64,000 bases of DNA from Novosphingobium sp. Chol11 (GCF_945870625.1 NZ_CAMBTS010000003.1:1-64000), one strand, 5' to 3'; positions 43,971-64,000 are shown, numbered from the stretch's first letter. Numbers and translations are program-made. The notes: generated by a model from the letters alone, not told the origin.

Positions 43971-44954
43971 ATGCCTGAGATGAGGAATGCCATGCCTGCA
44001 GCGCCCGAACCCGATCTTGCCCTGCCTTTCCAGGCCGCAGTGGTGCAGGCCGCCTCTTTGCCAAGCGACACGCCGGGCGCAGCGGCAAAAGCAGCCCTGC
44101 TGATCCACGAAGCCGCAAGCGCCGGCGCGCGGCTGATCGTCTTTCCCGAGGCGTTTCTTGGCGGCTATCCCAAAGGCGCAAGCTTTGGCGCGCCGGTGGG
44201 CATGCGCCGCCCCGAGGGGCGTGATGCTTTCGCTGCCTATTTCGCTGCTGCTATCGATCTTGATGGGCCGGAAGTCGCGGTCATCGCCGCTGCCACCGCG
44301 CAGACCGGCGCGTTTGTCGTGATGGGCGTGATCGAGCGCGACGGCGGTACGCTTTATTGCACGGCTTTGTTCTTTGACGGCGCAAAAGGGCTTGTCGCCA
44401 AACACCGGAAGCTGATGCCGACCGCGGCCGAGCGCCTGATCTGGGGCTTTGGCGATGGTTCGACCTTGCCGGTGATCGAGACCCCGCTGGGCCGGATCGG
44501 CGCGGTGATCTGCTGGGAGAACTATATGCCGATGCTGCGCATGGCGATGTATGATCAAGGGGTCACGCTCTATTGCGCGCCGACCGCCGATGATCGCGAA
44601 AGCTGGCCCGCGACCATGCGCCACATCGCGATGGAGGGGCGCTGCTTCGTGCTATCGGCCTGCCAGCATATCACGCGCGGCGCTTATCCGGCCGACCATG
44701 AATGCGCGCTGGGCGATGCGCCCGAAACCGTGTTGATGCGCGGCGGCAGCATGATCGTCGGCCCTTTGGGCGAGGTGCTGGCAGGGCCTGACTACAGCGG
44801 CGAAACCATCATTTATGCGCCCATCGATCCGGCGGCGATCGCACGCGGCAAGTATGATTTCGACGCGACCGGGCACTATGCGCGGCCCGATGTGTTCCAG
44901 CTTCGCGTAAACACTGCGCCCCAGCGCGCGGTTTCGCGCACCAGCGAAGGTTAG
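43971..44954 (+). CDS. Carbon-nitrogen hydrolase / nitrilase family protein
   Basis: RLIVFPEAFLGGYPKG (Glu), KHRKLMPTAAERLIWGFGDGS (Lys), IGAVICWENYMPMLRMAMYDQGVTLYCAPTADDRESW (Cys). Confidence 0.9.
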   Translation: MPEMRNAMPAAPEPDLALPFQAAVVQAASLPSDTPGAAAKAALLIHEAASAGARLIVFPEAFLGGYPKGASFGAPVGMRRPEGRDAFAAYFAAAIDLDGPEVAVIAAATAQTGAFVVMGVIERDGGTLYCTALFFDGAKGLVAKHRKLMPTAAERLIWGFGDGSTLPVIETPLGRIGAVICWENYMPMLRMAMYDQGVTLYCAPTADDRESWPATMRHIAMEGRCFVLSACQHITRGAYPADHECALGDAPETVLMRGGSMIVGPLGEVLAGPDYSGETIIYAPIDPAAIARGKYDFDATGHYARPDVFQLRVNTAPQRAVSRTSEG

Positions 44955-44958
44955 GCTC

Positions 44959-45576
44959 TTGGATTTCGATTTCAGCCAGACCTCGGGTGCCGACCGCTAC
45001 AAGCTGATGACCGCCAGCGTCACGCCGCGCCCCATCGCCTGGATCACCAGCCAATCCGCCGCAGGCCAGCGCAACGCCGCCCCATTCAGTTTTTTCAACA
45101 TGATGAGCGCCGATCCGCCACTGTTGGCGATCGGCCTGATGCGGCGCGGCGATGGTACGCACAAGGACACCGCCGCCAATATCCTCGAAACCGGGGAATT
45201 TGTGGTCAATCTCGTGGGCTATGGCGATGCCGAGGCGATGAACACGACCAGCATCGACGCACCTCCGGGCATCGACGAAATCGAATTTGCAAACCTGCAA
45301 ACGACCCCCTCTCTCGCAATTGCCCCGCCGCGCATTGCCAGCGCACCAGTCGCGATGGAATGCCGCCTGTCTGAAAAAATCGAGGCCGGCAGAACGACGA
45401 TTGCGGTCGGCGAAGTGCTCCGCTTCCATATTGCCGACCGCTTCATCAGCACCGAGCGGCTGCATGTCGATACGCTGGCGATGGAGTTGGTCGGCCGGAT
45501 GCACGGTGCCGGCTGGTACAGCCGCTCGGCCGAGCTTTTTCAGATGGCGCGTCCGGCATGGCCCCGCGAGGCATGA
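44959..45576 (+). CDS. Flavin reductase family protein
   Basis: RYKLMTASVTPRPIAWITSQSAAGQRNAAPFSFFNMMSADPPLLAIGL...HKDTAANILETGEFVVNLVGYGDAEAMNTTSIDAPPGIDEIEFA; TTG start. Confidence 0.85.
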   Translation: MDFDFSQTSGADRYKLMTASVTPRPIAWITSQSAAGQRNAAPFSFFNMMSADPPLLAIGLMRRGDGTHKDTAANILETGEFVVNLVGYGDAEAMNTTSIDAPPGIDEIEFANLQTTPSLAIAPPRIASAPVAMECRLSEKIEAGRTTIAVGEVLRFHIADRFISTERLHVDTLAMELVGRMHGAGWYSRSAELFQMARPAWPREA

Positions 45577-45605
45577 CAAGCAAAGACATCAGAGTGGGAA
45601 CAAGA

Positions 45606-47114
45606 ATGTCGGAAAATCTGGTCACGATCTTCTTCGAGCGACAACGCGGGTTCGAAAAAAAACCCGCGCTGATCTGGCAGGGCAATCCTGTCTGTACCTT
45701 TGGCGAACTGCCGGCGATGGTCGGCCGTTACCGCGCGGCGCTCAGGCAGCTTGGGGTGAAGCGCGGCGACCGGGTGATGGTCAAGACCGAAAACTCGCCG
45801 GCATTTGTCTTCACCTACCTCGCCATTCTGGCCAGCGGCGCCATGTTTGTGCCGCTCAACGCCGCCTACACGGCTGCGGAGGTTCAGGCGCTGGTCGAAG
45901 ACGCAGAGCCTGTATTGATCATCCACGCGGCGGCCACGGCCTTGCCAGCAGACGATGGCAGCATTGCCCGCATGACGCTCGAACCCGATGGCGGCGGCGC
46001 GCTGTCTTCGCTCGCGGCAACGCTCGCTCCCGATTTCTCGGTCGAAGAAATGGCCGCCACGGATCTGGCCGCAATCCTGTTTACCTCGGGCACGACGGGA
46101 CGCCCCAAAGGCGCGATGCTGATGCATCAAAACCTCTCCTCGAATGTGGCCGCGCTTTATGAAACGTGGCAATTCTCGGATGCTGACAGCATCTTGCATG
46201 CGCTTCCGCTGTTTCACGCGCATGGCCTGTTCGTGGCGCTGCATCTGGGGCTGTACAGCGCCGCGACCGTGACCATGCTGCCCAAGTTCGATCCCGCTGC
46301 GGTGATCGCCCTGTTGCCTGCGTCGACCGTGTTCATGGGTGTCCCGACATTCTATTCGCGTTTGCTTGCGCATGACGGATTCACGACTGCTACGGTCGCT
46401 TCAATCCGCCTGTTCGTCTCTGGATCGGCGCCGCTGCTCCCTTCGGTGTTCGCGTCGTTCGAGCAGCGCACCGGGCACCGCATCCTTGAGCGCTATGGCA
46501 TGACCGAAACGGTAATGATCACCTCGAATCCTTATGCTCCCGAAGGCCGGATTCCCGGCACCGTTGGCTATCCCCTGCCTGGCGTGTCCCTGCGGGTCAT
46601 CGGCGGGGAAGCGCTTGGTATCCTGCCTGCTGGCGAGATCGGCGACATCGAAATGAAGGGGCCGAACCTCTGCGCCGGATACTGGCGGCGGCCAGAGGCA
46701 ACCGCCGAAGCTTTCCGTGCAGACGGGTACTTCGCCACCGGCGATACCGGCGTGCAGGATGCCGGCGGCCGGCTGACAATCACGGGACGATCGAAAGATC
46801 TGATCATTTCGGGCGGGTTCAACATTTATCCGGCGGAACTGGAAATCCTCTTTGCCGAGATCGCGGGCGTGGCCGATGTGGCGATCATGGGGGTCCCCCA
46901 TCCCGATTTCGGCGAAGCTGTGGTCGCGGTGGTTATTGCAGACAGCCCGGACTTCGATCCGGCCACGGTCACACAGGTCGCGCAGGAACGTCTTGCACGC
47001 TTCAAGCAGCCCAAAGCGGTGCACGTGCTGGCTGAATTTCCGCGCAATGCCATGGGCAAAGTGCTGAAATCTGAGCTACGCCAGCGCTTTGCCGCCAGCT
47101 TTTCGAAAGCCTGA
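45606..47114 (+). CDS. AMP-dependent acyl-CoA synthetase/ligase (malonyl-CoA synthetase-like)
   Basis: AAILFTSGTTGRPKGAMLMHQNLSSN, ILERYGMTETVMITSNPY, YFATGDTGVQD, GRSKDLIISGGFNIYPAELE, RNAMGKVLKSELR. Confidence 0.9.
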   Translation: MSENLVTIFFERQRGFEKKPALIWQGNPVCTFGELPAMVGRYRAALRQLGVKRGDRVMVKTENSPAFVFTYLAILASGAMFVPLNAAYTAAEVQALVEDAEPVLIIHAAATALPADDGSIARMTLEPDGGGALSSLAATLAPDFSVEEMAATDLAAILFTSGTTGRPKGAMLMHQNLSSNVAALYETWQFSDADSILHALPLFHAHGLFVALHLGLYSAATVTMLPKFDPAAVIALLPASTVFMGVPTFYSRLLAHDGFTTATVASIRLFVSGSAPLLPSVFASFEQRTGHRILERYGMTETVMITSNPYAPEGRIPGTVGYPLPGVSLRVIGGEALGILPAGEIGDIEMKGPNLCAGYWRRPEATAEAFRADGYFATGDTGVQDAGGRLTITGRSKDLIISGGFNIYPAELEILFAEIAGVADVAIMGVPHPDFGEAVVAVVIADSPDFDPATVTQVAQERLARFKQPKAVHVLAEFPRNAMGKVLKSELRQRFAASFSKA

Positions 47115-47120
47115 GCGTCG

Positions 47121-47945
47121 TTAAGCCAAGCAGTGATCCGCCACCAGCCGGCGGAACAACGGCCCGTGCTCGATCATCGTCCAGTGGCCGCATTTGGCGA
47201 TGGTGTGAAGCTGCGAATTGGGCAGATGTTGGTGCAGGTTCCATGAGACGAGGGGATCGACCACGCGGTCGTCTCGGCCGTGCACCAGCAAGGTGGGATG
47301 GGTGATCCCCTGCAAGGCGTGGATCGGCAAGGTCTGCGCATCGAGCCAGCGCTGGCGCGGCGCGGGGAACAGGCGATGAAAGTGATCGAGCGCACCGGGC
47401 CGCGAACAGGCCTTGAGACGCATCGCGATCAGTTCGTCGGTCACCAGCGCTTGGTTCCAAGCCATGACGCTCAGTGCCTTTCGCATGTGCTCGGCCGTCG
47501 GCTGGAAGTCCCAGAGGATTTCAAGGTTTTCGTTGACGCGTGTCGGCCAGCCGCCCGGGCCCATCAGCACCAACCGGTCGCAGCGTTCGGGGTGTTTCCA
47601 CGCGAGCCACAACGCCAGCGACCCGCCGAAGCTGTTGCCCACGATGTGGGTTTTTGCGATCCCCAGCCCATCGAGCAGCGCGATGATCTGGTCGGTCCAT
47701 GAGTCCATGAAGCGGAAATCATAGTTTTCAGGTGTCTCGGTATAGCCAAAGCCGACAAGATCGGGCGCGATCACCCGAAAGCGGTCCTTCATCTCCGGAA
47801 TGAAACCGCGCCAATTGGCCCACGCGCAGACCCCGGCACCAGAACCATGCAGCACCAGCATGGCCGGGCCGGTGCCGTGATCATGATAGTTTGTGCGGTA
47901 GCCGCAGGTGTCTGCGAAAGTGCCGATTTCACTAACTTCGCTCAT
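47121..47945 (-). CDS. Alpha/beta hydrolase, meta-cleavage-product hydrolase-like
   Basis: MLVLHGSGAGVCAWANWRGFIPEMKDRFRVIAPDLVGFGYTETP; nucleophile IVGNSFGGSLALWLA; LLVHGRDDRVVDP; AKCGHWTMIEH. Confidence 0.85.
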   Translation of the reverse strand: MSEVSEIGTFADTCGYRTNYHDHGTGPAMLVLHGSGAGVCAWANWRGFIPEMKDRFRVIAPDLVGFGYTETPENYDFRFMDSWTDQIIALLDGLGIAKTHIVGNSFGGSLALWLAWKHPERCDRLVLMGPGGWPTRVNENLEILWDFQPTAEHMRKALSVMAWNQALVTDELIAMRLKACSRPGALDHFHRLFPAPRQRWLDAQTLPIHALQGITHPTLLVHGRDDRVVDPLVSWNLHQHLPNSQLHTIAKCGHWTMIEHGPLFRRLVADHCLA

Positions 47946-47970
47946 GCACAGGCTCCGCCATAGGGTTTCG

Positions 47971-47994
47971 ATGGAATTTCAATCGAACTTTGAT
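47971..47994 (+). promoter_or_regulatory. Operator-like 24-bp motif copy 1
   Basis: ATGGAATTTCAATCGAACTTTGAT in hydrolase/TonB-receptor divergent region; core TCAATYGA. Confidence 0.5.
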
Positions 47995-48085
47995 AGCGCA
48001 AGCCTGAAATGAATTCTAGACAGAAGTGGGTTTTAGTTTAAGCTTCAACTACCTTGCCCGCACCGCGCTGCGCGGCGAGTTTTAC

Positions 48086-48109
48086 ATTGAACTTCGATTG
48101 ACAATGCAT
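48086..48109 (-). promoter_or_regulatory. Operator-like 24-bp motif copy 2 (inverted)
   Basis: Reverse complement ATGCATTGTCAATCGAAGTTCAAT; same core as copies 1 and 3. Confidence 0.5.
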
Positions 48110-48138
48110 TGAAAATAAAAGTAGCCTGCAAGGGTGAA

Positions 48139-48150
48139 GGTGACGTCACC
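48139..48150. promoter_or_regulatory. Perfect 12-bp palindrome GGTGACGTCACC upstream of TonB receptor
   Basis: Direct reading; in the leader ~95 bp upstream of the start codon. Confidence 0.4.
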
Positions 48151-48244
48151 GAAAAATCGGGGCGGAGGAACACAGTGGCATCAGCCTGCTCAAAAGGCTG
48201 GTGCAAAGGTAGCTTGTTCAGGGATCAGACAAAAGGGGAGTCAC

Positions 48245-50704
48245 ATGCAAACGATCAAGAAGTCATTGCTTACGGCTTGTGCAACATCGCTGGCAATCGG
48301 CTGCGCCTTGCCCGCTGCCGCTCAGGATGCCGCCGCCAACGACGACCAGTCGGTCCTTTCCCAAGAAATCGTCGTGACCGCGCAGAAGCGCAGCGAGAAT
48401 GTGCAGGACGTGGGCATCACGATCAACGCCTATTCCGGCGAGCAATTGCGCGCGCTGGGCATCCAGAAAAGTTCCGACATCGCCAGCTACTCGCCCGGTG
48501 TATTCATCTCGGGCAGCCTTGCCGGGCAAAACACCCAGTTCACCATTCGCGGCGTAACGCAGAACGATTTCAATGACATCGTTGAAGCACCTAATGCGGC
48601 CTATCTGGATGAAGGCTACATCGCGATTGCACAAGGACAGTCGTTCGCGGTGTTCGACATCGAGCGCGTCGAGGTTTTGAAAGGACCGCAAGGCACCCTG
48701 TTTGGCCGCAATGCCACCGGCGGTCTGGTCCACTACATCAGCACATTGCCCTCGCTGACCAAGTGGGAAGGCTATATCGACGCCCGCTATGGCATCATGG
48801 AAGGCCCCGCCAGCCCGAGCGTGTTCACGTTGCAGGGCGCGGTCGGCGGGCCGCTGAACGAGAAAGTCGGCGTGCGCGCCGCAGGCCGCTGGAACAAGCA
48901 GCAGCCTTACTTGCGCAACCTCTATCCGCTTGGCGCGGTGGGCGGCTCGCCCGGCCCCGGCGCCGGTGCCAATCTCGGCGACGATGATACGCTGGCTGGC
49001 CGCTTCACCGTGTTGCTCGAACCAACCGAGGCCACGCAGTTCATCTTTTCGGCCAATGGCTCGCGCAGCCGCGTCGCCACCGGCCCTTATCAGCAGAAGT
49101 CGACCATCGCCCAGTTCGACGCCAACGGCGAACTTATCAACGTTCTCAATGCCGGGCCCAACGAGACGCGCGCCTCGATCGGCGTGAACGGCGCACCTAA
49201 TGTGATCAATGGCGATGCTGGTTCGGACCTTAATAACGACGGCGTGTTCGGCGGTCCCGGCGAAATTTACGGTCGTGCGCCCGGTGCAGACTTTTTCGGC
49301 TACACCGACCCTGATGGCAACGGCAACCTCTTCTCCAGCGATTTCGCGTTCAAGGATCAGGGCTATGTCGATACCTGGGGGCTGAACTTGCGGGGCAAGA
49401 TCGACCTCAGCGACAACGTCACGCTCTCGTCGATCACCGATTACAAGAACTTCAAGAAGCTGCTGTTCATCGACGTGGACGCTGGCCCGGCCAATCAGCT
49501 GGCCAATTATGGCAGCGTCGATGCCAAGAGCTTTACGCAGGAGCTGCGCCTCAACGGCAAGGCCGACCGGCTGAACTGGGCGGCAGGGCTTTATTATCTG
49601 CACATCGACAATCTATCGAGGAACGGCCTCAAGGCCCCGATCAACGGCCTTGTACCGGGCAACCCGATCGACATTGCCTCGACCGCGCGGCTCAAGACCA
49701 ACAGCTACTCGGCCTTCGGACAATTCGATTATGACCTGACCGACAAGTTCCGCGTCATTCTGGGCGCGCGCGTCATCCGCGAAGAGAAAGACTACAATTT
49801 TATCCAGGAGCTGTTTTTCTCGCCCGATCCCCGGGTCATCCAGCCAGGTCAGCCGCTCTTTCCCATCGGGCCGATCTATCCCGGCGGCGTGCCGTCGCGC
49901 TACCTCGACAAGAATGGCCAGACGCTGTGGGCGGGCAAGCTTCAGTTCGAGTATCGCCCGTCTGAGGGCACGCTGCTGTATGCGGGCGTCAACCGCGGCG
50001 TAAAGGCCGGCAGCTACAACGCGCAGCTCAACGGCGGCCTTGCGACACCCGACTCGGCGATCCGCTATGCGCCGGAAACCCTGTGGTCCTATGAAGGCGG
50101 CTTCAAGCTCTCGCTGCTTGACAACAAGGTGCGGCTGAACGGCGCGGTCTATTATTACGACTACAAGAACTATCAGTCGTTCCTGTTCACTGGTGTTTCA
50201 GGGCTCGTCATCAATTCCGATGCGCGCACGATCGGCGGTGAAATCTCGCTGATCACCAACCCGATACCCGGCATGGATCTGGCGCTGACCTTCTCCAAGT
50301 TCGACGCCAAGGTGAAGAATGTGCCGCTGCGCGTGGGCGGCCCGATCCGCAAGGATCTGAAACCCACTTATGCGCCCGAGACGCAAGCTTCCGGGATCAT
50401 CCGCTATGCCTGGGATATGTTCGGCGGCGAGATGGCAGCCAACGCCAACATCTCGTACTCGGCTTCGTTCTTTTACAATCTGCGCAATTTCGATGCGGAC
50501 AAGTTTGGCGCTTATACCAACATCGACCTTGGCCTGGGCTGGACATCGCCCAGCAAGAAATATGAAGTAGGGCTGATGGTCGATAACGCCACCAATCGCC
50601 GTATCGGCCTACAAGGGTTCGATCTGGCTGGTCTATGCGGATGCAACGAGGTGTCGTACAAGCTTGCACGCACTTTCGCGATCCGGACCCGCATCAGCTT
50701 CTAG
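48245..50704 (+). CDS. TonB-dependent receptor
   Basis: Signal peptide ending AAAQ; EIVVTAQKRSENVQDVGITINAYSGEQL plug, VEVLKGPQGTLFGRNATGG, terminal FAIRTRISF. Confidence 0.95.
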   Translation: MQTIKKSLLTACATSLAIGCALPAAAQDAAANDDQSVLSQEIVVTAQKRSENVQDVGITINAYSGEQLRALGIQKSSDIASYSPGVFISGSLAGQNTQFTIRGVTQNDFNDIVEAPNAAYLDEGYIAIAQGQSFAVFDIERVEVLKGPQGTLFGRNATGGLVHYISTLPSLTKWEGYIDARYGIMEGPASPSVFTLQGAVGGPLNEKVGVRAAGRWNKQQPYLRNLYPLGAVGGSPGPGAGANLGDDDTLAGRFTVLLEPTEATQFIFSANGSRSRVATGPYQQKSTIAQFDANGELINVLNAGPNETRASIGVNGAPNVINGDAGSDLNNDGVFGGPGEIYGRAPGADFFGYTDPDGNGNLFSSDFAFKDQGYVDTWGLNLRGKIDLSDNVTLSSITDYKNFKKLLFIDVDAGPANQLANYGSVDAKSFTQELRLNGKADRLNWAAGLYYLHIDNLSRNGLKAPINGLVPGNPIDIASTARLKTNSYSAFGQFDYDLTDKFRVILGARVIREEKDYNFIQELFFSPDPRVIQPGQPLFPIGPIYPGGVPSRYLDKNGQTLWAGKLQFEYRPSEGTLLYAGVNRGVKAGSYNAQLNGGLATPDSAIRYAPETLWSYEGGFKLSLLDNKVRLNGAVYYYDYKNYQSFLFTGVSGLVINSDARTIGGEISLITNPIPGMDLALTFSKFDAKVKNVPLRVGGPIRKDLKPTYAPETQASGIIRYAWDMFGGEMAANANISYSASFFYNLRNFDADKFGAYTNIDLGLGWTSPSKKYEVGLMVDNATNRRIGLQGFDLAGLCGCNEVSYKLARTFAIRTRISF

Positions 50705-50779
50705 ACTTGCCATCAAGCCCGCCGCTGCCTTTCACCAGGCGGCGGCGGAAAGCTTCTCTAACTCAAGGGCTTTTCCGAC

Positions 50780-51541
50780 GTGGCCGCCAGCAAACGTATT
50801 TTGATGATCGTGCCCGTGCCGGTGCCCGACGTTGCCCTGCCCAGCTTTGCGGCGCAGATTCCGCTCGAATTGGTGCGACCGGATATCGGCATCGATTTCA
50901 TCGGTTGCCGCAATGGCGCAAGGCTGATTGATTCGCCCTATGAACAGACGCTGGCCGATGCTTGGGTGCTGGAGGCAGGCGCGCGCGCCGAGGACCAGGG
51001 TTATGCGGCGGTCTGCGTCAATTCGATGAGCGACAGCGGGCTGGCTGCGCTGCGCTCCCGCTTGTCCATACCGGTCGTAGGACCAGGTCGCGCATCGTTC
51101 TTTCTCGCCGCCGACCTCGGCAAGAAATTCTCGGTGCTGACGATGTGGCAGCGCTGGCATCCGCTTTACGAAAAGCTTGCGCTCGAGACCGGCCTTGGCA
51201 GCTGCCTCGCCTCGATCCGCGATATCGACACCCGCCCCGATACGGCAGAGCTGCTGGCGGGCAAAGAGGACATCGTCTTTGCCAAGCTGGAGGAGCAAGC
51301 CCGCCGCGCGATCGACGAGGACGGCGCCGATGTGATCATCCTTGGTTCGACCACCATGCACCAATCGGCGACTTGGCTGGCATCGCGGTTGGAGGTGCCG
51401 GTGATCAATCCCGGCCTTGTCGCCTTCAAGTTGTGCGAGACGTTGATCGATCTGGGTCTGGCGCATTCGAAGAAGACCTATTTCGCCCCTGAAACTGCGC
51501 AGGATGATCTGTTGAGCCCGGTTCCGACGCTGTATCCCTGA
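50780..51541 (+). CDS. Aspartate/glutamate (hydantoin) racemase family protein with apparent Ser at both catalytic Cys positions
   Basis: AVCVNSMSDSGLAALRSRLSIPVVGPGRASF and VIILGSTTMHQSATWLASRLEVPVINPG; two-half fold typical of Asp/Glu racemases. Confidence 0.8.
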   Translation: MAASKRILMIVPVPVPDVALPSFAAQIPLELVRPDIGIDFIGCRNGARLIDSPYEQTLADAWVLEAGARAEDQGYAAVCVNSMSDSGLAALRSRLSIPVVGPGRASFFLAADLGKKFSVLTMWQRWHPLYEKLALETGLGSCLASIRDIDTRPDTAELLAGKEDIVFAKLEEQARRAIDEDGADVIILGSTTMHQSATWLASRLEVPVINPGLVAFKLCETLIDLGLAHSKKTYFAPETAQDDLLSPVPTLYP

Positions 51542-51655
51542 ACGAGGCACGAGCGCACAGCGCGTAGCCGCAACTGCCTTTGCCACACCTTGCCGGATCG
51601 GACGCTATAACCGATAGGGGAGCGTGACAGCAGCAGCGGGAACAGACGCTCGACC

Positions 51656-52189: not shown

Positions 52190-52203
52190 GCCAGCGCCTT
52201 GCA

Positions 52204-54713: not shown

Positions 54714-54717
54714 CCCC

Positions 54718-55606: not shown

Positions 55607-56662
55607 TCAGCTGGCTACGAACCGTTCCGAATGAATGTTGTCAGGAGCCAGGCCCAGTGCTTCGAGATGGCTGCGCGCGGCCTCGACCATGCCTGGTGGA
55701 CCGCACAGATAAGCCACCGACGCAGGATCGATCGCGCCGCCCTGCCCCACTGCCTCGACCGGATTGCCGACGCGCACCGGGTCTGAGGCCGGACCGCGAT
55801 CAACCGACAATTGGACCGAGAGGCCGGGAAGCCAATGCTGGCGCAATTCCAGCGCATCACGGTGGAACAGCCCCTCTTCGCTGGTGCAGCCAAAGCTCAA
55901 AAGGATGGGCGGTTTGCGCCCCGGCCGAGCGCGGATCTGGTCGATCATCGCCATCATGGGAGCAAGGCCCGTGCCGCCGGCGATCATGATATGCGGGACC
56001 TTTTCGCCCTCGCGCAGGAAGAACGCGCCGTGCGGCCCGGCAATCTCCACGACCGCATCGGGGGCTGCGCGATTGAGCAACCATTCCGACATCACCCCGC
56101 CTGGCAGCAGGCGAACGAGCAGTTCGATCTTGGGCAATTGCGCGGGCGTGGAGGCAATCGAATAGCTGCGTGTCTGATCGGTTCCTGGAACCTTGATCTG
56201 AATGAACTGACCTGGGCGAAAGTCGATCCAGCTGCCTTCTGCCAGCTCTAGCTCCAGTCGGATCACGTCGGCGGCGACGCGCTCGACCGCATTCACGAAA
56301 GTCTGCGCCGCGCTCACCTGCTGGCCGCCAGTACTGTCATAACCCAGCGTGAAGCGGCAATCGCCGCGCGCTTGAGTGACGCACAGCAACCGCTTGCCCG
56401 CTGCCATTTCCGAGGCGAACAACGAGGAGTTGCTGCCGGGCAAAGTGCCTGCCTCGCCCTCCACCAATGTCGCCAGACAGCTTGAGCAAGTGCCCGAACG
56501 GCATTGATGGAGCAGCGGCAGTCCGGCTTCCAGACCGGCCGCAAGAATGCTGCTGCCGGTCGGAATGCTCAAGGTATGCTCGGCGCCGTCACTGAACGTG
56601 AAAGTGACATGAGAAGCGCCGAGGTCCACCGCTGTCTGATCGCTCTCAGTAGCTGTTAACAT
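55607..56662 (-). CDS. Ring-hydroxylating oxygenase reductase: plant-type 2Fe-2S plus FAD/NAD(P)H domains
   Basis: LPLLHQCRSGTCSSCLATLVEGEA (CX4CX2C), TRSYSIAS, GGVMSEWLLN, HIMIAGGTGLAPMMAMI, YLCGPPGMVEAA. Confidence 0.92.
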   Translation of the reverse strand: MLTATESDQTAVDLGASHVTFTFSDGAEHTLSIPTGSSILAAGLEAGLPLLHQCRSGTCSSCLATLVEGEAGTLPGSNSSLFASEMAAGKRLLCVTQARGDCRFTLGYDSTGGQQVSAAQTFVNAVERVAADVIRLELELAEGSWIDFRPGQFIQIKVPGTDQTRSYSIASTPAQLPKIELLVRLLPGGVMSEWLLNRAAPDAVVEIAGPHGAFFLREGEKVPHIMIAGGTGLAPMMAMIDQIRARPGRKPPILLSFGCTSEEGLFHRDALELRQHWLPGLSVQLSVDRGPASDPVRVGNPVEAVGQGGAIDPASVAYLCGPPGMVEAARSHLEALGLAPDNIHSERFVAS

Positions 56663-57953
56663 CTTCGATCTTTTCGACAAAATAACCGGGAGCCTTGCCC
56701 TCGGCGAGCCGCCGCAGGCGGATGCTCGATGTCTTGGTGGCACCCGTTACACCCTTGCCCGGCTTGGCAATGCCGCGGTTCCAGCGCGAGGCGACCTTGC
56801 GCCAGGTGATGGCCGAAACATCGGTGGCGGCCAGTTGTTCGTTGTCCCAGCCAGTGCCGTCGGCGTAAAACTCCTCCATCGCTTCGCGCGCGTAGAGATC
56901 GCAATCGTTGAACCCGCGCAGGCACAGAGGCATGAACACCCGGTCGAAGCGGTGCTTGAACGCCTTCTTTTCCTCGTCGGTCTTGCAGACCCGGACCATC
57001 ACTTCCCAATACTCGTAGAGGTCGTCGGTGATCGGCACATACCATTCATACTGGACGATATGTTCTTCGGGCCAGTTTTCGACCATCAAGCAGCCAGGCA
57101 GGACGACCGACGTGCGATAGAAGCGACCATTGAGCGCATCGATCTTGAGACCCAATTGCGGGTTCTCCATCACCGGCTTCCACCGATCGGTGAACAGCCA
57201 CTGGATCAGGCCCTTGGGGCCGTCTTCGTCTTCGGTGAGCGTGATCGGCTCTTCATGATCGGGCAGGATACCCAGCGGCAGCACCCAGTTCAGTGCGTGG
57301 ACGATGGTGTTCTCCATGTGCACCAGAATGTGCGCGTTATCGAACCCATTTTCGCAGGCGATGCGCCAGTTGCTCTGGCCAGTGCGATGCAGCCCTAGTG
57401 CCACCGCGCCTTCATCGAGCAGGCTCGGCGCCGCGGGCCAAAGCGGATGCGGGAAGCGCTCGCTGTTTTCCGGAAAGCGGATCGGCAGATCCTGCGACAA
57501 CGGCGGAACATCCTCGAGCGGATAATCGTCTTCGCGAACGAACACGAAGATCATGCCGCCGGCTTCTTCGACAGGATAAGAGGTGATGCCCGCGGTGCCG
57601 ACGAGCGGATCATCGGGATTGGCGACGATGGTCGAGAGCAGGCCATCAGCCAGATCAAACGTAAAGCCATGATACCAGCAGGTGATCGAGCTTTTGTTGA
57701 AGCAGGTCGGCTTGGCCGAAAGACGCACGCCGCGGTGCAGGCACTGGTCCTTGAGCGCGAAAACCTTGCCATCGACACGGCGCAGCACGATGGGGATGCC
57801 GCAAATCTGGATGCCTTCGACTTTATCCTCGGGCAGCTCCTCGCTGAACAGCGCGGGATACCAATGATTGACGAAGCCCCAGGCGGCGTCCTTGTATGGC
57901 TGGTACTGGCTTTGCAAGGCGCTGTCGTTCAGCCGCTTGTCGCTGGTACTCAT
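56646..57953 (-). CDS. Rieske aromatic ring-hydroxylating oxygenase, alpha subunit
   Basis: DQCLHRGVRLSAKPTCFNKSSITCWYHGFTFDLADG (CXH-X17-CXXH Rieske) and ENGFDNAHILVHMEN (Fe ligands); CarAa-like overall. Confidence 0.93.
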   Translation of the reverse strand: MSTSDKRLNDSALQSQYQPYKDAAWGFVNHWYPALFSEELPEDKVEGIQICGIPIVLRRVDGKVFALKDQCLHRGVRLSAKPTCFNKSSITCWYHGFTFDLADGLLSTIVANPDDPLVGTAGITSYPVEEAGGMIFVFVREDDYPLEDVPPLSQDLPIRFPENSERFPHPLWPAAPSLLDEGAVALGLHRTGQSNWRIACENGFDNAHILVHMENTIVHALNWVLPLGILPDHEEPITLTEDEDGPKGLIQWLFTDRWKPVMENPQLGLKIDALNGRFYRTSVVLPGCLMVENWPEEHIVQYEWYVPITDDLYEYWEVMVRVCKTDEEKKAFKHRFDRVFMPLCLRGFNDCDLYAREAMEEFYADGTGWDNEQLAATDVSAITWRKVASRWNRGIAKPGKGVTGATKTSSIRLRRLAEGKAPGYFVEKIEDVNSY

Positions 57954-58042
57954 CCGCACGGTGGTGCGGCGGCGGATCGGTGAGGCTTCGTTCATCGCGC
58001 AAATCCTTTCAAGGAAACAGGACAAGTCATTGAATTAAAATG

Positions 58043-58930
58043 CTAGAGCGTGCCGAGAAGGAAACGGGAGACGACATCGTCATGCTCCTCTGGGCGTTCC
58101 CATTGCGGCCAATGCGCGCAGCCGCGCATGATATGCTTTTTGGCGCCGGGAATGATCGCCTCAAGCCGGTCAGCCGCATCTTCGCCGTGGATCGGGTTCT
58201 TGTCGGTCCACAGTACCAGCGCGGGGCAGCTGATTTTCCGGATATCGTCTTCCTGCCAATAATATTCGGCAATATCGGGGGCGAACAAGCGCTCATAATA
58301 CTCGATCAGCGCGGTGCGGGTTTCGGGGATGAACCACAGCGTCTGGCGCAATTCGACCAGTTCGTCGGTCACACCGCCGAGCGGCATCAGCCAGTCCAGA
58401 CGCTTGCGCAGCAGCTCGCGCGTCGGGTTCAGCAGCGCGTTCATCGAGGTTTCGCGCAGCGCGTTGAGGTCTGATCCGCCCTCGTGGACATGGGCGGGAT
58501 CAAGATGCATCCCCCACGAAGTGTTGAGAATCACCTTCGAGGTGCGATCCGGATGGTTGATCGCCATATCAAAGGCGATCCAACCGCCGAGCGACTCCCC
58601 CTCGACCACCGCCTTTTCAATGCCGAGATGGTCCATCAGATTGATGAGCTGATCAGTGAACTGGGTCAGCCAGTTTTCAGCAGCGCGAGGCGCGCCGTTT
58701 GAGTATGCCGGACGCGAAGACATGCCATGCCAGATGAAATCGATCGCATGCGGCTGGCATACTTTGCTCAGCCGCATCAGATTGCGCGAGTATGTCTCCG
58801 CATGGCCGCCGCCGCCATGGAGCAGGAACACATGTTCGCCGCTGCCCGGCGCAGAGATGGCGCGGGTCGTGTACTTTCCGGTATCGATGAACCGAGTCTC
58901 GGTACCGAGCAGATCGACATGGATCGTCAT
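58043..58930 (-). CDS. Alpha/beta hydrolase (meta-cleavage-product hydrolase-like)
   Basis: HVFLLHGGGGHAETYSRNLMRLSKVCQPHAIDFIWHGMSSRP; nucleophile VEGESLGGWIAFDMA; CAHWPQWERPEEH. Confidence 0.85.
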   Translation of the reverse strand: MTIHVDLLGTETRFIDTGKYTTRAISAPGSGEHVFLLHGGGGHAETYSRNLMRLSKVCQPHAIDFIWHGMSSRPAYSNGAPRAAENWLTQFTDQLINLMDHLGIEKAVVEGESLGGWIAFDMAINHPDRTSKVILNTSWGMHLDPAHVHEGGSDLNALRETSMNALLNPTRELLRKRLDWLMPLGGVTDELVELRQTLWFIPETRTALIEYYERLFAPDIAEYYWQEDDIRKISCPALVLWTDKNPIHGEDAADRLEAIIPGAKKHIMRGCAHWPQWERPEEHDDVVSRFLLGTL

Positions 58931-59011
58931 TGGCCATTCTCCCGCAGCCAGAGCCTCATGCTCCCGAGTCTCATGAACCCTTGCCGCTGATGGACAGTGT
59001 GACATCATGAA

Positions 59012-59035
59012 ATAGAAAATCAATTGATATTCTAT
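59012..59035. promoter_or_regulatory. Operator-like 24-bp near-perfect palindrome, motif copy 3
   Basis: ATAGAAAATCAATTGATATTCTAT: ATAGAA/TTCTAT arms flanking TCAATTGA. Confidence 0.6.
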
Positions 59036-59141
59036 CAAAGCTGGCCGATCACCGGTTGACTCGACCCTGGCATGATCGCAACTCTGCGCAGAGGCTAACG
59101 CAGATCTGCCGCCGGTGAGATTCTCACAGAAGGACCGCTGA

Positions 59142-60248
59142 ATGTCGCATGTTGAAAACCGGATGCGCCGCGCCAATCACTTCAAGCTGGGCACGTTTTC
59201 CACCAATTGCTCTGGCGGCATGTCGGTGACCAAAATCCCGGAGCGCTGGGATGCCAGCTGGGAGAGCAATCTGGCGATCGCGCAGTTGCTCGATGATGCC
59301 GGGATTGACTTCATGCTGCCAATCGCGCGGTGGATCGGCTATGGCGGGGAGACCAATTTTCACGGGTCCGTGCTGGAAACGATGACTTGGGCAGCGGGGC
59401 TTCTGGCCTTGACCAAGCGCATCTCGGTCATCGCTACGATCCACACAACCGCCAATCATCCAGTCGTCGTGGCCAAGCAGATCGCCACGATCGATGCCAT
59501 CGGCCGGGGTCGCGCCGGGCTCAATATCGTGGCCGGCTGGAACAAGCCCGAATACGAAGCGCTGGGGCTGACGCTGCCTGACGACCACGAGACGCGCTAT
59601 GGCTATGCGCAGGAATGGTTCGACATCATCGAGGCGCTGTGGAGCAAGTGCGGCGCGTTTGATATGAAAACGCCGCACTTCGATCTCAAGGGCGTTGAAT
59701 CCGAGCCCAAGCCGGTAAACGGGCGGCCTCCGATCATGAATGCGGCGGGATCAGAGCTCGGGCGGGAATTTGCCACGCGAAATGCCGATTTCCTGTTCAC
59801 TTCGGTGATCGACTTCGAACGCTCGCGCGGGGAAATCGCCGAGCTGAAAAACCAGGCCGCCGCTGCGGGCCGCGATGTCGATGTGCTGACCTTCAGCCAT
59901 GTCGTTTGCCGCCCGGCCGAGCAGGAAGCGAAGGACTACCTCCAATATTTTGCCAAGGACAACGCCGACTGGGTCGCCGTCGACAATCTGGTGCGCCTTC
60001 AGATCGCGCATGCACATAGCTTTCCGCACGACCTGTTGATGCTCATCCGCGACCGCTTTGCGATGGGCCATGGCGGCGTTCCTCTGATCGGAACGCCCGA
60101 GCAAGTGGCGGACGGTATCTGCCAGATGCACGATCTGGGCCTTGGCGGGACAACCCTCTCGTTTGCCGACTATACCAAGGAGTTCCCGTATTTTCGGGAT
60201 AATGTGCTGCCCATTCTAGAGGCGCGCGGCATCCGCCAGCCGGGTTAA
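59142..60248 (+). CDS. LLM-class flavin-dependent monooxygenase (RutA-like)
   Basis: FKLGTFSTNCSGGMSVTKIPERWDASWESNLAIAQLLDDAGIDFMLPIARWIGYGGETNFHG; TIHTTANHPVVVAKQIATIDAIGRGRAGLNIVAGWNKPEYEALG. Confidence 0.9.
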   Translation: MSHVENRMRRANHFKLGTFSTNCSGGMSVTKIPERWDASWESNLAIAQLLDDAGIDFMLPIARWIGYGGETNFHGSVLETMTWAAGLLALTKRISVIATIHTTANHPVVVAKQIATIDAIGRGRAGLNIVAGWNKPEYEALGLTLPDDHETRYGYAQEWFDIIEALWSKCGAFDMKTPHFDLKGVESEPKPVNGRPPIMNAAGSELGREFATRNADFLFTSVIDFERSRGEIAELKNQAAAAGRDVDVLTFSHVVCRPAEQEAKDYLQYFAKDNADWVAVDNLVRLQIAHAHSFPHDLLMLIRDRFAMGHGGVPLIGTPEQVADGICQMHDLGLGGTTLSFADYTKEFPYFRDNVLPILEARGIRQPG

Positions 60249-60261: not shown

Positions 60262-61152
60262 TCAACGGGCGTAAGCCGCCGCCAGCGCGAGCACGCCCTG
60301 TGCTTGCTTCAAATGCGGAAGATCGAGCATCCGCCCGTCCAGCCCGACGGTGCCCGCGCCCGGCTCTTCGGCAAAAGCGGCGAGCACGCGGTGCGCGTGA
60401 TCGATCTCTGCGGACGAGGGCATGTAGCTTTCATTGATCGCTGCCACTTGCGCTGGATGAATGGCAAGGCGGCCGGTGAAGCCCTCACCGCGCGATTCCT
60501 GCGAAGCTGCGCGCAGCCCGGCCTCGTCGCGGAAATCGGCGTAGAGCGTGTCGATCGGCTGCACCCCGGTCGCGCGCGCCGCCATTAGCGTGAGGACCCG
60601 CGCCATGCGGTATGCCATCGCCCAAGCCCCAGCCGGATCGCGGTTTGTGCTGGCACCGAGCGCCGCGGACAGATCCTCCGCCCCCCACGTGAGGCCCACC
60701 AAACGTTCCAAACGGGCGCCGGCATAATCGCCCAGCCGGAACGGGGCGATGGCGGTTTCGGTCGCCACCGGCAAGATGCGAATTGATCCGGCGGGAACTC
60801 CGGCCTGCACTTCGAGGGCATCGAGATAAAGCGAGAGCTTGAAGACATCGGCGGGGCCGTCGGCCTTGGGCAGCATCAGCCCATCAGGCTGAGCCGAGAC
60901 GACCTCGACAAGGTCTTCCAGCGCCAGCGCAGTATCGAGCGGATTGATCCGCACCCATAGCTGGCTTGTGCGCGCGGCGCGGGGCCTCGCGCGCAGGAAA
61001 TCCGGCACCAGTTCGCGCGCCAAAGGCTTTTGCGAAAGGGAGACCGAATCCTCCAAATCGAGGATCAGCGCATCGGCGCCCGCGCCATCGGCCTTGGCCA
61101 GTTTCTTCGCGCTGTCGCCCGGGATGAACAGCAGCGAGCGCAGCGGGGTCAT
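60262..61152 (-). CDS. HpcH/HpaI aldolase / citrate lyase beta-like (CitE) protein
   Basis: MTPLRSLLFIPGDSAKKLAKADGAGADALILDLEDSV; WVRINPLDT; LMLPKADGPADV; IHPAQVAAINESYMPS. Confidence 0.9.
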   Translation of the reverse strand: MTPLRSLLFIPGDSAKKLAKADGAGADALILDLEDSVSLSQKPLARELVPDFLRARPRAARTSQLWVRINPLDTALALEDLVEVVSAQPDGLMLPKADGPADVFKLSLYLDALEVQAGVPAGSIRILPVATETAIAPFRLGDYAGARLERLVGLTWGAEDLSAALGASTNRDPAGAWAMAYRMARVLTLMAARATGVQPIDTLYADFRDEAGLRAASQESRGEGFTGRLAIHPAQVAAINESYMPSSAEIDHAHRVLAAFAEEPGAGTVGLDGRMLDLPHLKQAQGVLALAAAYAR

Positions 61153-61601
61153 GCCGGCTTCTTCCGCTGCAGCCCGCTGCGCTTGCACGTGGCAACCAGT
61201 TCGCCGCGCTGGTTGTGCGCGCGGTGAAGGAAGGTGACGATCCCGGCATCGGGGCGGGATTTGGAATCGCGCAATTCCACCACCTCGGTCTCGATCCGCA
61301 GCGTATCGCCGATGAACACAGGGGAGGGAAAGCGGACCTCGTCCCAGCCGAGATTGGCAACCGCCGTGCCGAGCGTGGTATCGCCCACTGAAACGCCGAC
61401 CATCAGCCCCAGCGTAAACGCCGAATTGACGATGATCTGGCCGTACTCGCTATCTTTCATGTATTCGGCATCGAGATGGAGCTGCGCCGGATTGTGCGTC
61501 AGCGCGCAGGTCATCAGATTGTCGGTCTCGGTTACCGTCCGCCGCAGCGCATGCGCAAACTTCTGCCCCACAAACAGTTCATCAAACCAGACCCCAGCCA
61601 T
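61149..61601 (-). CDS. MaoC family (R)-hydratase-like protein
   Basis: FDELFVGQKFAHALRRTVTETDNLMTCALTHNPAQLHLDAEYMKDSEYGQIIVNSAFTLGLMVGVSV; 4-bp overlap with CitE gene. Confidence 0.9.
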   Translation of the reverse strand: MAGVWFDELFVGQKFAHALRRTVTETDNLMTCALTHNPAQLHLDAEYMKDSEYGQIIVNSAFTLGLMVGVSVGDTTLGTAVANLGWDEVRFPSPVFIGDTLRIETEVVELRDSKSRPDAGIVTFLHRAHNQRGELVATCKRSGLQRKKPA

Positions 61602-61750: not shown

Positions 61751-62176
61751 TCACCACTTGCCCGCCCCGGGAAACTTGCGGGCGCTGAGTTCGTTGGCCG
61801 AGATCACCGGCGCTTCGCCGACCGGTAAACCGTTGCTGGCTGAGATCAGCGCGGTCAATTTCAGCACTTGCGCTTCAGACAAAGTGCCTGCCTGCCCCAC
61901 CGGCATCGTCGAGATAATCCGGCTGCAAAGCGCGCGCATCGGCTTATCGCTGTAGGCGGCTCGGAATGCCGGCACGATCAGGCTTGGCCCCAGTGCACCT
62001 TGCAGATTGGGACCATGACACACCGCGCAAGTATCGGCAAACAGGCGGCGGCCTTCCTCCACTTGCTCGGCAGAAAACGTGGCGGGCACCTTTGGCATGC
62101 GCCGCGATGTTGCGGGTGCCGCCGATGCTGCCGCTGCCGCTGAGACGACTGCCGCCAGCAAGAGCAAGCGCATCAT
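61751..62176 (-). CDS. Secreted c-type cytochrome
   Basis: Signal peptide, GRRLFADTCAVCHGPNLQGALGPSLI (CXXCH), STMPVGQAGTL. Confidence 0.88.
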   Translation of the reverse strand: MMRLLLLAAVVSAAAAASAAPATSRRMPKVPATFSAEQVEEGRRLFADTCAVCHGPNLQGALGPSLIVPAFRAAYSDKPMRALCSRIISTMPVGQAGTLSEAQVLKLTALISASNGLPVGEAPVISANELSARKFPGAGKW

Positions 62177-62253
62177 GGCCTCACGCATCCATTCGCCAGA
62201 ACCTTCGGCCCAGAACGCGAGATATCGCGGCGCGCCCGTTTCATCAGCAGCCT

Positions 62254-62757
62254 TCACGGCTTGGCCGGAGTGCGCGCACTCCAATGCATATGCGCCATCG
62301 ACCAGCGCCCGCCGCGTTTGAACCACGCCTCGGTCATGTGGTACATCACTGTGGGTTCGGTTGCGGCGGGCAGCCCGCCTTTCCGGCCAATCACTGGCAT
62401 CGCGAATGTGGCAACCACAGCGTCTCCTTTTGGCGAGACGCGCATTTGCAGATCTTCGATGGCCAGCGATGACACGCCCCCGCCCTCGCCCACAACTTTG
62501 GTCCAGCGGGTCACATAATCCTGCTTTACCCAGCGCGCGTTCGGGCCGTTCCAGACCATGATGTCGTCATCAAAATAGGAAAAGTACGCCGCCAGATCAT
62601 TCACGGCATAGGCCGCCGCGACTTTGCGCACGAGCGCTTCCACTTCGGCGCTGGCGCTGGCCTGCGGCGAGGATCTGGCCATGCTGATCTGCGCTGCTGC
62701 GCTCACGGGAAGCGCCATGGCGGCCAAGCTCAGGCAAATCCGGCGAAAGCCTCGCAT
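62254..62757 (-). CDS. SnoaL/NTF2-like (DUF4440) secreted protein
   Basis: Signal peptide; VRKVAAAYAVNDLAAYFSYFDDDIMVWNGPNARWVKQDYVTRWTKVV...WSMAHMHWS. Confidence 0.75.
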   Translation of the reverse strand: MRGFRRICLSLAAMALPVSAAAQISMARSSPQASASAEVEALVRKVAAAYAVNDLAAYFSYFDDDIMVWNGPNARWVKQDYVTRWTKVVGEGGGVSSLAIEDLQMRVSPKGDAVVATFAMPVIGRKGGLPAATEPTVMYHMTEAWFKRGGRWSMAHMHWSARTPAKP

Positions 62758-62761
62758 CGGC

Positions 62762-64000
62762 TTACTTAAGCCCGTAGGCGATCCACGACGCCCCTTTCGC
62801 GCTGCTCGACACCGCCACCACAATGCGCTGACCGGCGGCCGTCTGGTAGCTGACCGGCGATGTCGTTGCCCCTGCCGGCATGGGAACCTGGCCAACCAGC
62901 GCACCAGTGCTCTTATCATACGCGCTCAGCTTGGCCGGGCCGTCATAACCTGCCGTATCCCAGACAACGCTGCTGCCGTCTGGCACCAGCAGCAGCGATT
63001 TGGTAACAATCAGCGGCACGCGCGAAGCGATCCCCGTTGGCGGAAACTTTGCCCCCTTCAATGCCGGATTGGCGCGGATCTGCGGATCATCGCCATTGGC
63101 GATGGTCCACAATTTATCGCCCTTGTTCATGTCATATGCGGTGATGCGGCCATAGGGCGGCTTGATGATCGGCAATCCTGATGATGTCGGCGGGACCAGC
63201 GGTAGCCCGCCATGATCATAACCATCAGGCTTGGGGGCACCTGGCGCGACCGGAGCAGGTTTGCCCGGAACCACCGGCTTGGGAATGATATAGGCCGTGC
63301 TTGCAGCCGGATCGGGCGCCTTGATCAAGCCATAAACCGTCGGTTTGGTTCTTGCAACAGCGTAATAGCGGCCGGTTTCGGGGTCGAATGCACCAGTATT
63401 CCAGTTTCCTGAACCCCACACCCCGGGCGAAGCCAGTGTGCCCAGCGAGGTTTCGGTGATCAGCGAAGGCGGGGTAAACAAAGGCCCCAATCGGTACTTT
63501 GCAGCCGTCGCCTGCGCCTCTTTGGCCGTTTCAGGCGTGAAGCTGGCAAGGTCTGCCAGCGTCACACCCTGCTGATCGAAAGCTGGCGGCTTGGATGGGA
63601 AAGGCTGCGTTGGCGAGGTATGTTCGCCCGGAATGTCGGACTGCGGAACGGGTCGCTCCTCGATCGGCCAGACCGGCGTGCCCGTTGCCCGGTCAAACAC
63701 ATAAAGGAACCCGGTTTTCCCGGCCTGAATGACCGACTTGATCGGACGCCCATCGACGACCAGATCGGCCAGCACCGGCGGCGCGGCCAGATCATAATCC
63801 CAAAGATCGTGATGGACCATCTGGAAGTGCCACACACGCTTGCCGGTCTTGGCATCCAGCGCCACCAGACTGCTGCCGAAAAGATTATCGCCCTTGCGGT
63901 GGCCGCCATAATACATCGGCGGGGCGGATAGCGGGACATACACAATCCCCAGCGCCTCATCCGCGCTCATCGGCGACCACGCCCCTTGCGCGCCGGACGA
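62762..64000 (-). CDS. PQQ-dependent dehydrogenase (quinoprotein glucose/alcohol dehydrogenase-like), partial (N-terminus beyond right edge)
   Basis: Frame open to window end: SSGAQGAWSPMSADEALGIVYVPLSAPPMYYGGHRKGDNLFGSSLVALDAKTGKRVWHFQMVHHDLWDYDLAAPPVL; beta-propeller W motifs. Confidence 0.88.
   Translation of the reverse strand, partial: SSGAQGAWSPMSADEALGIVYVPLSAPPMYYGGHRKGDNLFGSSLVALDAKTGKRVWHFQMVHHDLWDYDLAAPPVLADLVVDGRPIKSVIQAGKTGFLYVFDRATGTPVWPIEERPVPQSDIPGEHTSPTQPFPSKPPAFDQQGVTLADLASFTPETAKEAQATAAKYRLGPLFTPPSLITETSLGTLASPGVWGSGNWNTGAFDPETGRYYAVARTKPTVYGLIKAPDPAASTAYIIPKPVVPGKPAPVAPGAPKPDGYDHGGLPLVPPTSSGLPIIKPPYGRITAYDMNKGDKLWTIANGDDPQIRANPALKGAKFPPTGIASRVPLIVTKSLLLVPDGSSVVWDTAGYDGPAKLSAYDKSTGALVGQVPMPAGATTSPVSYQTAAGQRIVVAVSSSAKGASWIAYGLK

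Follow-up and report, generated by a model that had tools for sequence, protein, structure and literature searches.

A conserved gene island around an OxoO-type Rieske oxygenase in Novosphingobium sp. Chol11, possibly for the breakdown of fused bicyclic lactams

The stretch of DNA examined here, referred to as the window, comprises the first 64,000 bases of contig C3 (70,227 bases) in the genome of Novosphingobium sp. Chol11 (G000; 3.23 Mb, 179 contigs, 93.8% complete). Its right-hand part contains a group of putative catabolic genes around a gene for a Rieske oxygenase of the OxoO family (Table 1). The first-pass annotation had described positions 43971-64000 as an island for the breakdown of a nitrogen-containing aromatic compound, and nearly all of its family calls were borne out by Pfam and NCBIfam, namely those of the Rieske oxygenase and its reductase, the extradiol dioxygenase, two α/β hydrolases (here called abH1 and abH2), the nitrilase, amidase, flavin reductase, CoA ligase, CitE-like and MaoC-like proteins and the TonB-dependent receptor.

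A search with the Rieske protein against about 85,000 species genomes yielded 80 loci with 70% to 95% identity (loci are denoted L and genomes G), and neighbours were counted up to 10 kb from the Rieske gene; these counts are lower bounds, with many contigs cut. The reductase gene was located near the Rieske gene in 72 loci, and genes for the M20-like protein, the racemase-like protein and the regulator in 66, 35, and 31 to 32 loci, respectively. Of the 23 sphingomonad and gammaproteobacterial loci, 22 had the BphC-like extradiol gene and 19 the amidase gene, and the genes for the hydrolase, Rieske oxygenase, reductase, extradiol dioxygenase, amidase and M20-like protein, where present, had a constant order and strand. 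The hydrolase abH2 had 17 close relatives adjoining a Rieske gene. The recurring set also included the TonB receptor, the racemase-like protein and the winged-helix regulator, and was joined in the nearest relatives by the gene for the LLM monooxygenase. The TonB receptor was 77% to 82% identical in L011, L012 and L015, and the LLM protein 88% to 91% identical in L011 to L015. The recurrence of an identical gene set in an identical order in independent genomes goes beyond chance. Furthermore, abH1 and the CoA ligase of malonyl-CoA synthetase type are linked to the set: in the nearest relative, G001, their genes were located about 2.5 kb past the TonB receptor gene and are therefore considered part of the island, and abH1 adjoined the ligase in both G001 and G002.

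No homologue of the nitrilase, the CitE-like and MaoC-like proteins, the cytochrome c, the pyrroloquinoline quinone (PQQ)-type dehydrogenase or a second Rieske oxygenase encoded just beyond the window end was found within 10 kb of any of the 80 Rieske genes, and homologues of the flavin reductase (38% to 43% identity) were found near only 2. Thus neither the right border proposed at first nor a part of the left one is supported; the conserved island spans about 45558-60248 and is narrower than first claimed. The flavin reductase may serve the LLM monooxygenase.

Table 1. Genes at and beside the island, with family assignment and its basis
Gene product	Position	Strand	Basis and remarks
Nitrilase	43971-44954	+	Pfam/NCBIfam family; adjoins island, outside conserved part
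Flavin reductase	44959-45576	+	Pfam/NCBIfam family; adjoins island, outside conserved part
AMP-dependent CoA ligase, malonyl-CoA synthetase (MatB) type	45558-47114	+	NCBIfam malonyl-CoA synthase
α/β hydrolase abH1, meta-cleavage-product hydrolase type	47121-47945	-	HsaD and BphD models, below cut-off
TonB-dependent outer-membrane receptor, presumed uptake	48134-50704	+	Pfam PF00593, PF07715
Asp/Glu-racemase superfamily protein, single catalytic-type Cys	50780-51541	+	PF01177
Winged-helix (MarR-like) regulator	51656-52189	+	PF13463 HTH_27, 45.5 bits
M20-fold protein without M20 metal ligands; candidate aryl C-N hydrolase	52204-53529	-	Relative of 5-nitroanthranilate aminohydrolase
Amidase-signature amidase	53532-54809	-	PF01425, 231 bits
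Type I extradiol dioxygenase, BphC-like	54718-55584	-	Biphenyl-2,3-diol 1,2-dioxygenase model; PDB 1han
2Fe-2S/FAD/NAD reductase of Rieske system	55607-56743, likely start near 56662	-	PF00111, PF00970, PF00175
Rieske oxygenase, OxoO family	about 56646-57968	-	phmmer 1z01; PF11723
α/β hydrolase abH2, meta-cleavage-product hydrolase type	58043-59176, true start downstream of that listed	-	PF00561
LLM flavin monooxygenase, between RutA and SfnG	59142-60248	+	NCBIfam; PDB 8t0u, 5wan
CitE-like lyase	60262-61188	-	Resembles itaconate RipC; adjoins island
MaoC-like hydratase	61149-61601	-	Resembles itaconate RipB; adjoins island

The Rieske protein matched OxoO (PDB 1z01) over residues 3 to 436 with 790 bits (phmmer, E = 4e-237) and an identity of 71.8%. 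The next relatives were the carbazole dioxygenases, with about 290 bits, and the identity to plasmid-borne carbazole-type Rieske proteins was 37% to 38%. The Rieske site (CLHRG/CWYHG) and the segments NAHILVH and FND.DLYARE aligned with those in 1z01. In a maximum-likelihood phylogeny of 83 Rieske sequences, OxoO fell among proteins from Pseudomonas (91% identity to that of L088), and the window protein grouped with those of L011 to L015 in a sphingomonad clade (support 100/99). Judged by this placement, the window protein is a member of the OxoO family but not the closest kin of the enzyme from Pseudomonas putida 86. It was also noted that L017, L077 and L088 contained 2 genes for OxoO-type Rieske proteins, one of which was divergent in L017 and L077, and that G203, which belongs to the same genus as the window genome, contained 2 copies (81% and 69%) matching the Novosphingobium arvoryzae locus L017. 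Locus L038, from a metagenome-assembled genome labelled Klebsiella pneumoniae, grouped with the freshwater gammaproteobacterial locus L028 in this tree, and its organism label looks wrong. A match on a plasmid of Cupriavidus necator carried no annotation.

The product of the gene at 52204-53529 had been called an M20 hydrolase. Its relationship to the M20 fold holds, but it scored only 16.3 bits against the Pfam M20 family (cut-off 24.6). The sole strong solved relative by sequence was 5-nitroanthranilate aminohydrolase (phmmer 5k8p, E = 9e-19), which hydrolyses an aromatic amine to a phenol (PMC10306065). The same structure was the top Foldseek match (E = 1.1e-30; next M20 protein 4e-22) to an AlphaFold2 model built from 24 sequences, with a TM value of about 0.6 and an uncertain domain orientation. 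Compared with 3 canonical M20 proteins from the window genome, the island protein had (A/S)PID in place of GHxD, Asn in place of the bridging Asp, GG(M) in place of EE and the Lys of KPW in place of the Glu of EP, and the C-terminal His was gone, which leaves it without any canonical M20 metal ligand. The change from Asp to Asn was the same as in the aminohydrolase, but the metal-binding residues of that enzyme were not kept, with His replaced by Pro and Glu by Lys at the aligned sites. The replacement residues were invariant or nearly so in 24 to 54 sequences from alpha-, beta-, and gammaproteobacteria, and the site has therefore been remodelled rather than decayed. The gene also tracked the Rieske gene: in the order, where the island is rare, both were present in the same 3 of 201 genomes (M20-like protein at least 67% identical; Fisher's test, 7.5e-7, with the related genomes not independent of each other).

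With these features, the M20-like protein may account for the unassigned conversion of a hydroxylated lactam to a catechol. Hydrolytic replacement of the ring nitrogen would convert 8-hydroxyquinolinone into a catechol amide or into 8-hydroxycoumarin, a known intermediate of quinoline degradation in P. putida 86 (PMC7913881), and would likewise convert 7-hydroxyoxindole into 2,3-dihydroxyphenylacetamide, which would suit the amidase well as a substrate. Alternatively, attack of the Rieske oxygenase on the angular carbon could lead to ring opening without a further enzyme, in which case the M20-like protein has another role.

The protein first described as Asp/Glu-racemase-like does belong to that superfamily (PF01177), but has only one of the 2 catalytic cysteines. 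The first was invariant in 27 sequences, and the second was replaced by Thr in the motif GSTTMHQS; the protein is thus not expected to racemise by the usual mechanism with two cysteines. A hydantoin or N-carbamoylase route via the racemase and the M20 protein was rejected, the defining catalytic residues being missing in both. A second gene of the same superfamily with an arylmalonate decarboxylase-like score (cluster c34) was located near the regulator gene in L011, L018, L020, L022, L029 and L083, and was not seen in the window island.

Ring cleavage and the steps beyond it are represented by several genes. The extradiol dioxygenase, whose open reading frame (ORF) overlaps that of the amidase as called from its first start, matched the structure 1han (E = 3e-56) and the model for biphenyl-2,3-diol 1,2-dioxygenase with 282 bits (BphC cut-off 366), and the HsaC model with 194 bits (cut-off 450), which places it in this superfamily and leaves its function unfixed. 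Hydrolase abH1 scored 173 bits against HsaD and 142 bits against BphD, and abH2 102 bits against HsaD, all below cut-off. The CoA ligase exceeded the cut-off for malonyl-CoA synthase in NCBIfam (624.5 bits, cut-off 558), and its best solved relatives were the malonyl-CoA synthetases 4fuq and 4fut (450 bits). Orthologues with 69% to 76% identity were found in 8 other island genomes, such that the ligase (at least 69%) occurs in 9 genomes: the LLM-bearing sphingomonads G000 to G003, and G006, G007, G009, G010 and G011, which carry a group-E (styrene/indole-type) monooxygenase. In G006, G007, G009 and G010, no more than about 4 kb separated the ligase gene from the group-E gene. Ligase (at least 69%) and abH1 (at least 59%) went together in the 22 sphingomonad and gammaproteobacterial genomes compared: abH1 was found in all 9 that carry the ligase, at 61% identity or more, with the gene split over 2 contigs in G002. 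Neither was found in any of the 3 genomes with a quinoline 2-oxidoreductase. Within the Sphingomonadales, abH1 and the malonate-type ligase thus go with the group-E and LLM types and not with the quinoline type. Finally, contig C66 of the window genome carries genes for a hydratase, an acetaldehyde dehydrogenase and an aldolase of DmpE/F/G type, which are 74%, 81% and 90% identical to genes beside other islands.

The distribution of the ligase can be explained by the known reactions of BphC and BphD. If a catechol bearing a two-carbon acid side chain is meta-cleaved and the product hydrolysed, malonate would be set free, or methylmalonate where the methyl group of skatole is present, whereas a six-membered quinolinone would give a four-carbon diacid for which no MatB-type ligase is needed. 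It is mainly on this ground that we prefer a substrate of the oxindole type.

Three kinds of genes for a possible entry step were associated with the core. A molybdenum hydroxylase adjoined the island in L016, L020 and L030, and the large subunit in L016 scored 1087 bits to quinoline 2-oxidoreductase (1t3q) versus 491 to CO dehydrogenase. Orthologues of this enzyme (67% to 100%) were found only in the genomes of these loci, 3 of the 50 Rieske-bearing genomes, and the others contained only paralogues with 33% to 39% identity. A group-E monooxygenase of at least 50% identity was present in 17 of the 50 genomes, split over 2 contigs in one of them, and in 10 loci its gene lay a short distance from the Rieske gene; one such enzyme, SkaA, turns skatole into 3-methyloxindole (PMC13101512). 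The LLM monooxygenase, with at least 68% identity, was present in 14 of the 50, and is the sole one of the 3 entry genes in the window genome. At the thresholds used, none of the 22 sphingomonad and gammaproteobacterial genomes contained more than one of them. In the Rieske tree, the quinoline-type pair L016/L020 is nested within the clade of the group-E type, which suggests that entry steps have been swapped on a shared core. In two further loci, L100 (contig C56 of G002) and L105 (Cupriavidus necator A5-1), ORFs that by eye resemble subunits of indolepyruvate ferredoxin oxidoreductase and a protein of cyclase or isatin-hydrolase type were located near orthologues of the ligase or the LLM protein, and possibly represent another indole-linked module.

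Taken together, we consider it an almost even chance that the core (about 45558-60248), organised around the OxoO-type Rieske oxygenase, serves the catabolism of an N-heteroaromatic lactam with two fused rings, most probably an oxindole-type compound derived from indole, skatole or a relative. The gene content, its conservation, the family placements, the loss of the M20 ligands and the co-occurrence are observations, from which we infer the substrate, every reaction and the order of the steps. In the proposed route, the substrate would be taken up by the TonB receptor and hydroxylated by the Rieske oxygenase and its reductase on the benzo ring, next to the ring nitrogen. The M20-like protein would then hydrolyse the aryl C-N bond to give a catechol with an acetamide-type side chain, unless oxygenation takes place at the angular carbon and is followed by spontaneous ring opening, as with carbazole. 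The amidase would convert the side-chain amide to the acid, the BphC-like dioxygenase would cleave the catechol next to the side chain, and an α/β hydrolase would release 2-hydroxypentadienoate and malonate, or methylmalonate from a substrate with the skatole methyl group. The MatB-type ligase would activate the latter to malonyl-CoA or methylmalonyl-CoA, and the former would be handled by the DmpE/F/G-type genes on contig C66.

Several observations weigh against this reading. For OxoO itself, the described activity is that of an 8-monooxygenase on a six-membered lactam. No orthologue of quinoline 2-oxidoreductase (QorMSL) was found in the 93.8% complete window genome, in which the best match was a CO-dehydrogenase-like paralogue on contig C11 with 34% identity, and the group-E monooxygenase had no match there either; the lactam-forming step is either missing from this genome or may be performed by the LLM monooxygenase. 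The LLM protein and the single-cysteine racemase-like protein fit no clear step, and the gammaproteobacterial LLM loci L024, L025 and L028 were without abH1 and a close ligase. Other small diacids may also be substrates of MatB-type ligases, and neither the extradiol dioxygenase nor the hydrolases reach the curated cut-offs for named functions. Moreover, the M20-like protein has lost even metal ligands kept by the aminohydrolase, which makes the transfer of aryl-amine chemistry weak, and its predicted structure has a mean pLDDT (predicted local distance difference test score) of 79 and poor confidence at residues 170 to 174.

It is conceivable, although unlikely, that quinoline or 2-oxoquinoline itself is degraded via the 8-hydroxycoumarin route of P. 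putida 86 and that the carbon leaves as succinate or fumarate together with 2-hydroxypentadienoate. The membership of the window Rieske protein in the OxoO family, the quinoline 2-oxidoreductase next to the same core in L016, L020 and L030, and the role of 8-hydroxycoumarin in the strain 86 pathway (PMC7913881) all fit such a route. However, orthologues of the quinoline 2-oxidoreductase were missing not only from the window genome but also from 46 of the other 49, and the malonate-type ligase (at least 69%) and abH1, present in the window, were missing from the 3 quinoline-type genomes.

We assign a similarly low probability to another lactam compound, such as an alkaloid, a plant or algal oxindole, or a pyrimidine-like ring, of which a RutA-like LLM enzyme would open the amide bond first, leaving the aryl remainder to the Rieske and meta-cleavage genes. 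This scheme is near that of the first-pass annotation, which had named the LLM protein RutA-like. The assignment to the LLM family stands, and the protein sits between RutA and SfnG, but the score of 161 bits against RutA is far below the cut-off of 498, as is also the 186 bits against SfnG below its own. The LLM and a GMC oxidoreductase form a recurrent pair in L011, L012, L015, L024 and L104, and in the Azoarcus locus L104 the ORFs that come after the LLM gene resemble, by eye, a flavin reductase and a nitroreductase or RutE, as in Rut clusters. Against this, the presence of the LLM in only 14 of the 50 Rieske-bearing genomes, as given above, implies that it is not needed by the core.

An upper meta-cleavage pathway of the carbazole, chloridazon or aryl-pyrimidine type is very improbable. 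The gene classes (Rieske oxygenase, extradiol dioxygenase and hydrolase) are shared and carbazole dioxygenase is the next relative of the Rieske protein, but the gap between about 290 and 790 bits puts it with OxoO, and the carbazole pathway was rejected on this placement. Carbazole clusters carry a two-subunit extradiol dioxygenase, CarBaBb, whereas the window gene encodes a single-subunit type I enzyme. A riboflavin/lumichrome pathway, in which a Rieske enzyme opens the quinoxaline ring before catechol cleavage, has a like logic of amide hydrolases, Rieske and extradiol enzymes, but hardly comes into consideration: the lum cluster comprises a two-subunit Rieske oxygenase with separate ferredoxin and reductase, a P450, a thiamine pyrophosphate-dependent decarboxylase and a xanthine oxidase-type enzyme (PMC12746152), and a comparison of gene lists gave no direct match to the island. 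Kynurenic acid, of the tryptophan quinoline pathway, was set aside after no genes for its breakdown turned up in the literature searched.

The earlier view was therefore partly supported, in that a co-conserved island for N-aromatic compounds with meta-cleavage and amide-type hydrolases, a TonB receptor and a linked regulator was recovered and the interpretation was right in kind. It was not right in substrate class or closest pathway: a fused bicyclic lactam of the oxindole or quinolinone type fits better than a separate aryl group and N-ring, the parallel with biphenyl and carbazole routes gives way to that with OxoO, and aryl-pyrimidine, chloridazon and hydantoin substrates found no support. 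That no described pathway has this gene order agrees with our searches of the open-access literature (OxoO/quinoline, oxindole/Rieske, oxindole/malonyl-CoA), in which no named cluster matching the island was found, a result that is not proof of absence; yet the OxoO quinoline pathway and the group-E entry to 3-methyloxindole are already described (PMC13101512 for the latter). Novelty lies mainly in the M20-like protein without a metal site and in the modular entry steps, the oxygenase family being known.

Beside the island, the CitE-like and MaoC-like proteins scored 155 bits against RipC and 123 bits against RipB, both below cut-off, and an ending of citraconate or mesaconate type via these genes was rejected, as both were absent from all related loci. 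To the left, at 28826-43734, lies a hopanoid-type neighbourhood with genes for an amine-oxidase-type protein, squalene-hopene cyclase, an MMPL transporter, a DUF2141 protein and DXS. To the right, a PQQ-type dehydrogenase is encoded together with a cytochrome c and a SnoaL-like protein (61751-64000, and 12763-14847 in L009); LLM-type islands of relatives instead have a GMC oxidoreductase gene (cluster c38) near the TonB receptor or LLM gene. Beyond the window end, at 65702-67135 of contig C3 (15703-17136 in L009), a second Rieske oxygenase alpha subunit, unrelated to that of the island, is encoded beside a small, divergently oriented SnoaL/Ring_hydroxyl_B-like gene (15093-15677 in L009). The window genome has a rich set of ring-hydroxylating oxygenases, with 19 Ring_hydroxyl_A matches in 3.2 Mb.

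The aerobic breakdown of indole- and quinoline-type compounds matters for coking waste, manure odour and tryptophan turnover, yet the genes for the steps past oxindole or quinolinone are poorly known; with the island, a compact and testable set of candidates becomes available. OxoO is known from quinoline degradation, and its family is found mostly in genomes without quinoline 2-oxidoreductase. A bolder proposal, which we hold only with much reserve, is that fused bicyclic lactams are handled by the OxoO-type core as a widespread module with an interchangeable entry (quinoline 2-oxidoreductase, group-E monooxygenase, or a new LLM kind), and that this module includes a metal-free aryl C-N hydrolase of M20 fold which is the missing step both in the 8-hydroxycoumarin quinoline route and in aerobic oxindole and skatole breakdown. 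Such a hydrolase would be a new type of active site for the superfamily, and its lost metal site, the invariant surroundings of that site and its co-occurrence with the oxygenase recommend the M20-like protein in the search for new enzyme chemistry.

Among known systems, the closest is OxoO/OxoR, the 2-oxo-1,2-dihydroquinoline 8-monooxygenase of P. putida 86 (1z01), with which the window oxygenase, encoded next to a 2Fe-2S/FAD reductase gene, shares its family over the full length (72% identity). However, OxoO belongs to the Pseudomonas clade and the window protein to a separate sphingomonad clade, in a genome that lacks quinoline 2-oxidoreductase but has its own extradiol dioxygenase, hydrolase and ligase genes. 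The same core adjoins QorL in the quinoline-type loci, whereas in the window genome QorL is missing and the malonate-type ligase and abH1 are present instead. The ska cluster of Rhodococcus, in which skatole is converted to 3-methyloxindole by SkaA and then passes to a Rieske system, follows the same logic as the group-E island variants, with a flavin epoxidase and a Rieske oxygenase presumably acting on an oxindole; it differs in its three-component Rieske system, its undefined downstream steps and a SkaA-type gene that is absent from the window genome (PMC13101512). Carbazole 1,9a-dioxygenase CarAa is also a single-subunit oxygenase of the family PF11723, but plasmid-borne carbazole-type Rieske proteins are 37% to 38% identical to the window protein, against 72% for OxoO. 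The monooxygenases RutA and SfnG share a fold family with the island LLM protein and are its nearest solved relatives (8t0u, 5wan), although both curated cut-offs were missed by a wide margin. The 5-nitroanthranilate aminohydrolase (5k8m-5k8p) is the nearest relative of the M20-like protein in sequence and fold, but where the island family has (A/S)PID and KPWN it retains SHLD and, at the aligned EAT site, an acidic residue. Finally, the malonyl-CoA synthetase MatB (4fuq) belongs to the same family and subfamily as the window ligase, which scores above the cut-off and is predicted from its sequence to use malonate or methylmalonate, but which differs from MatB in being linked to a meta-cleavage hydrolase.

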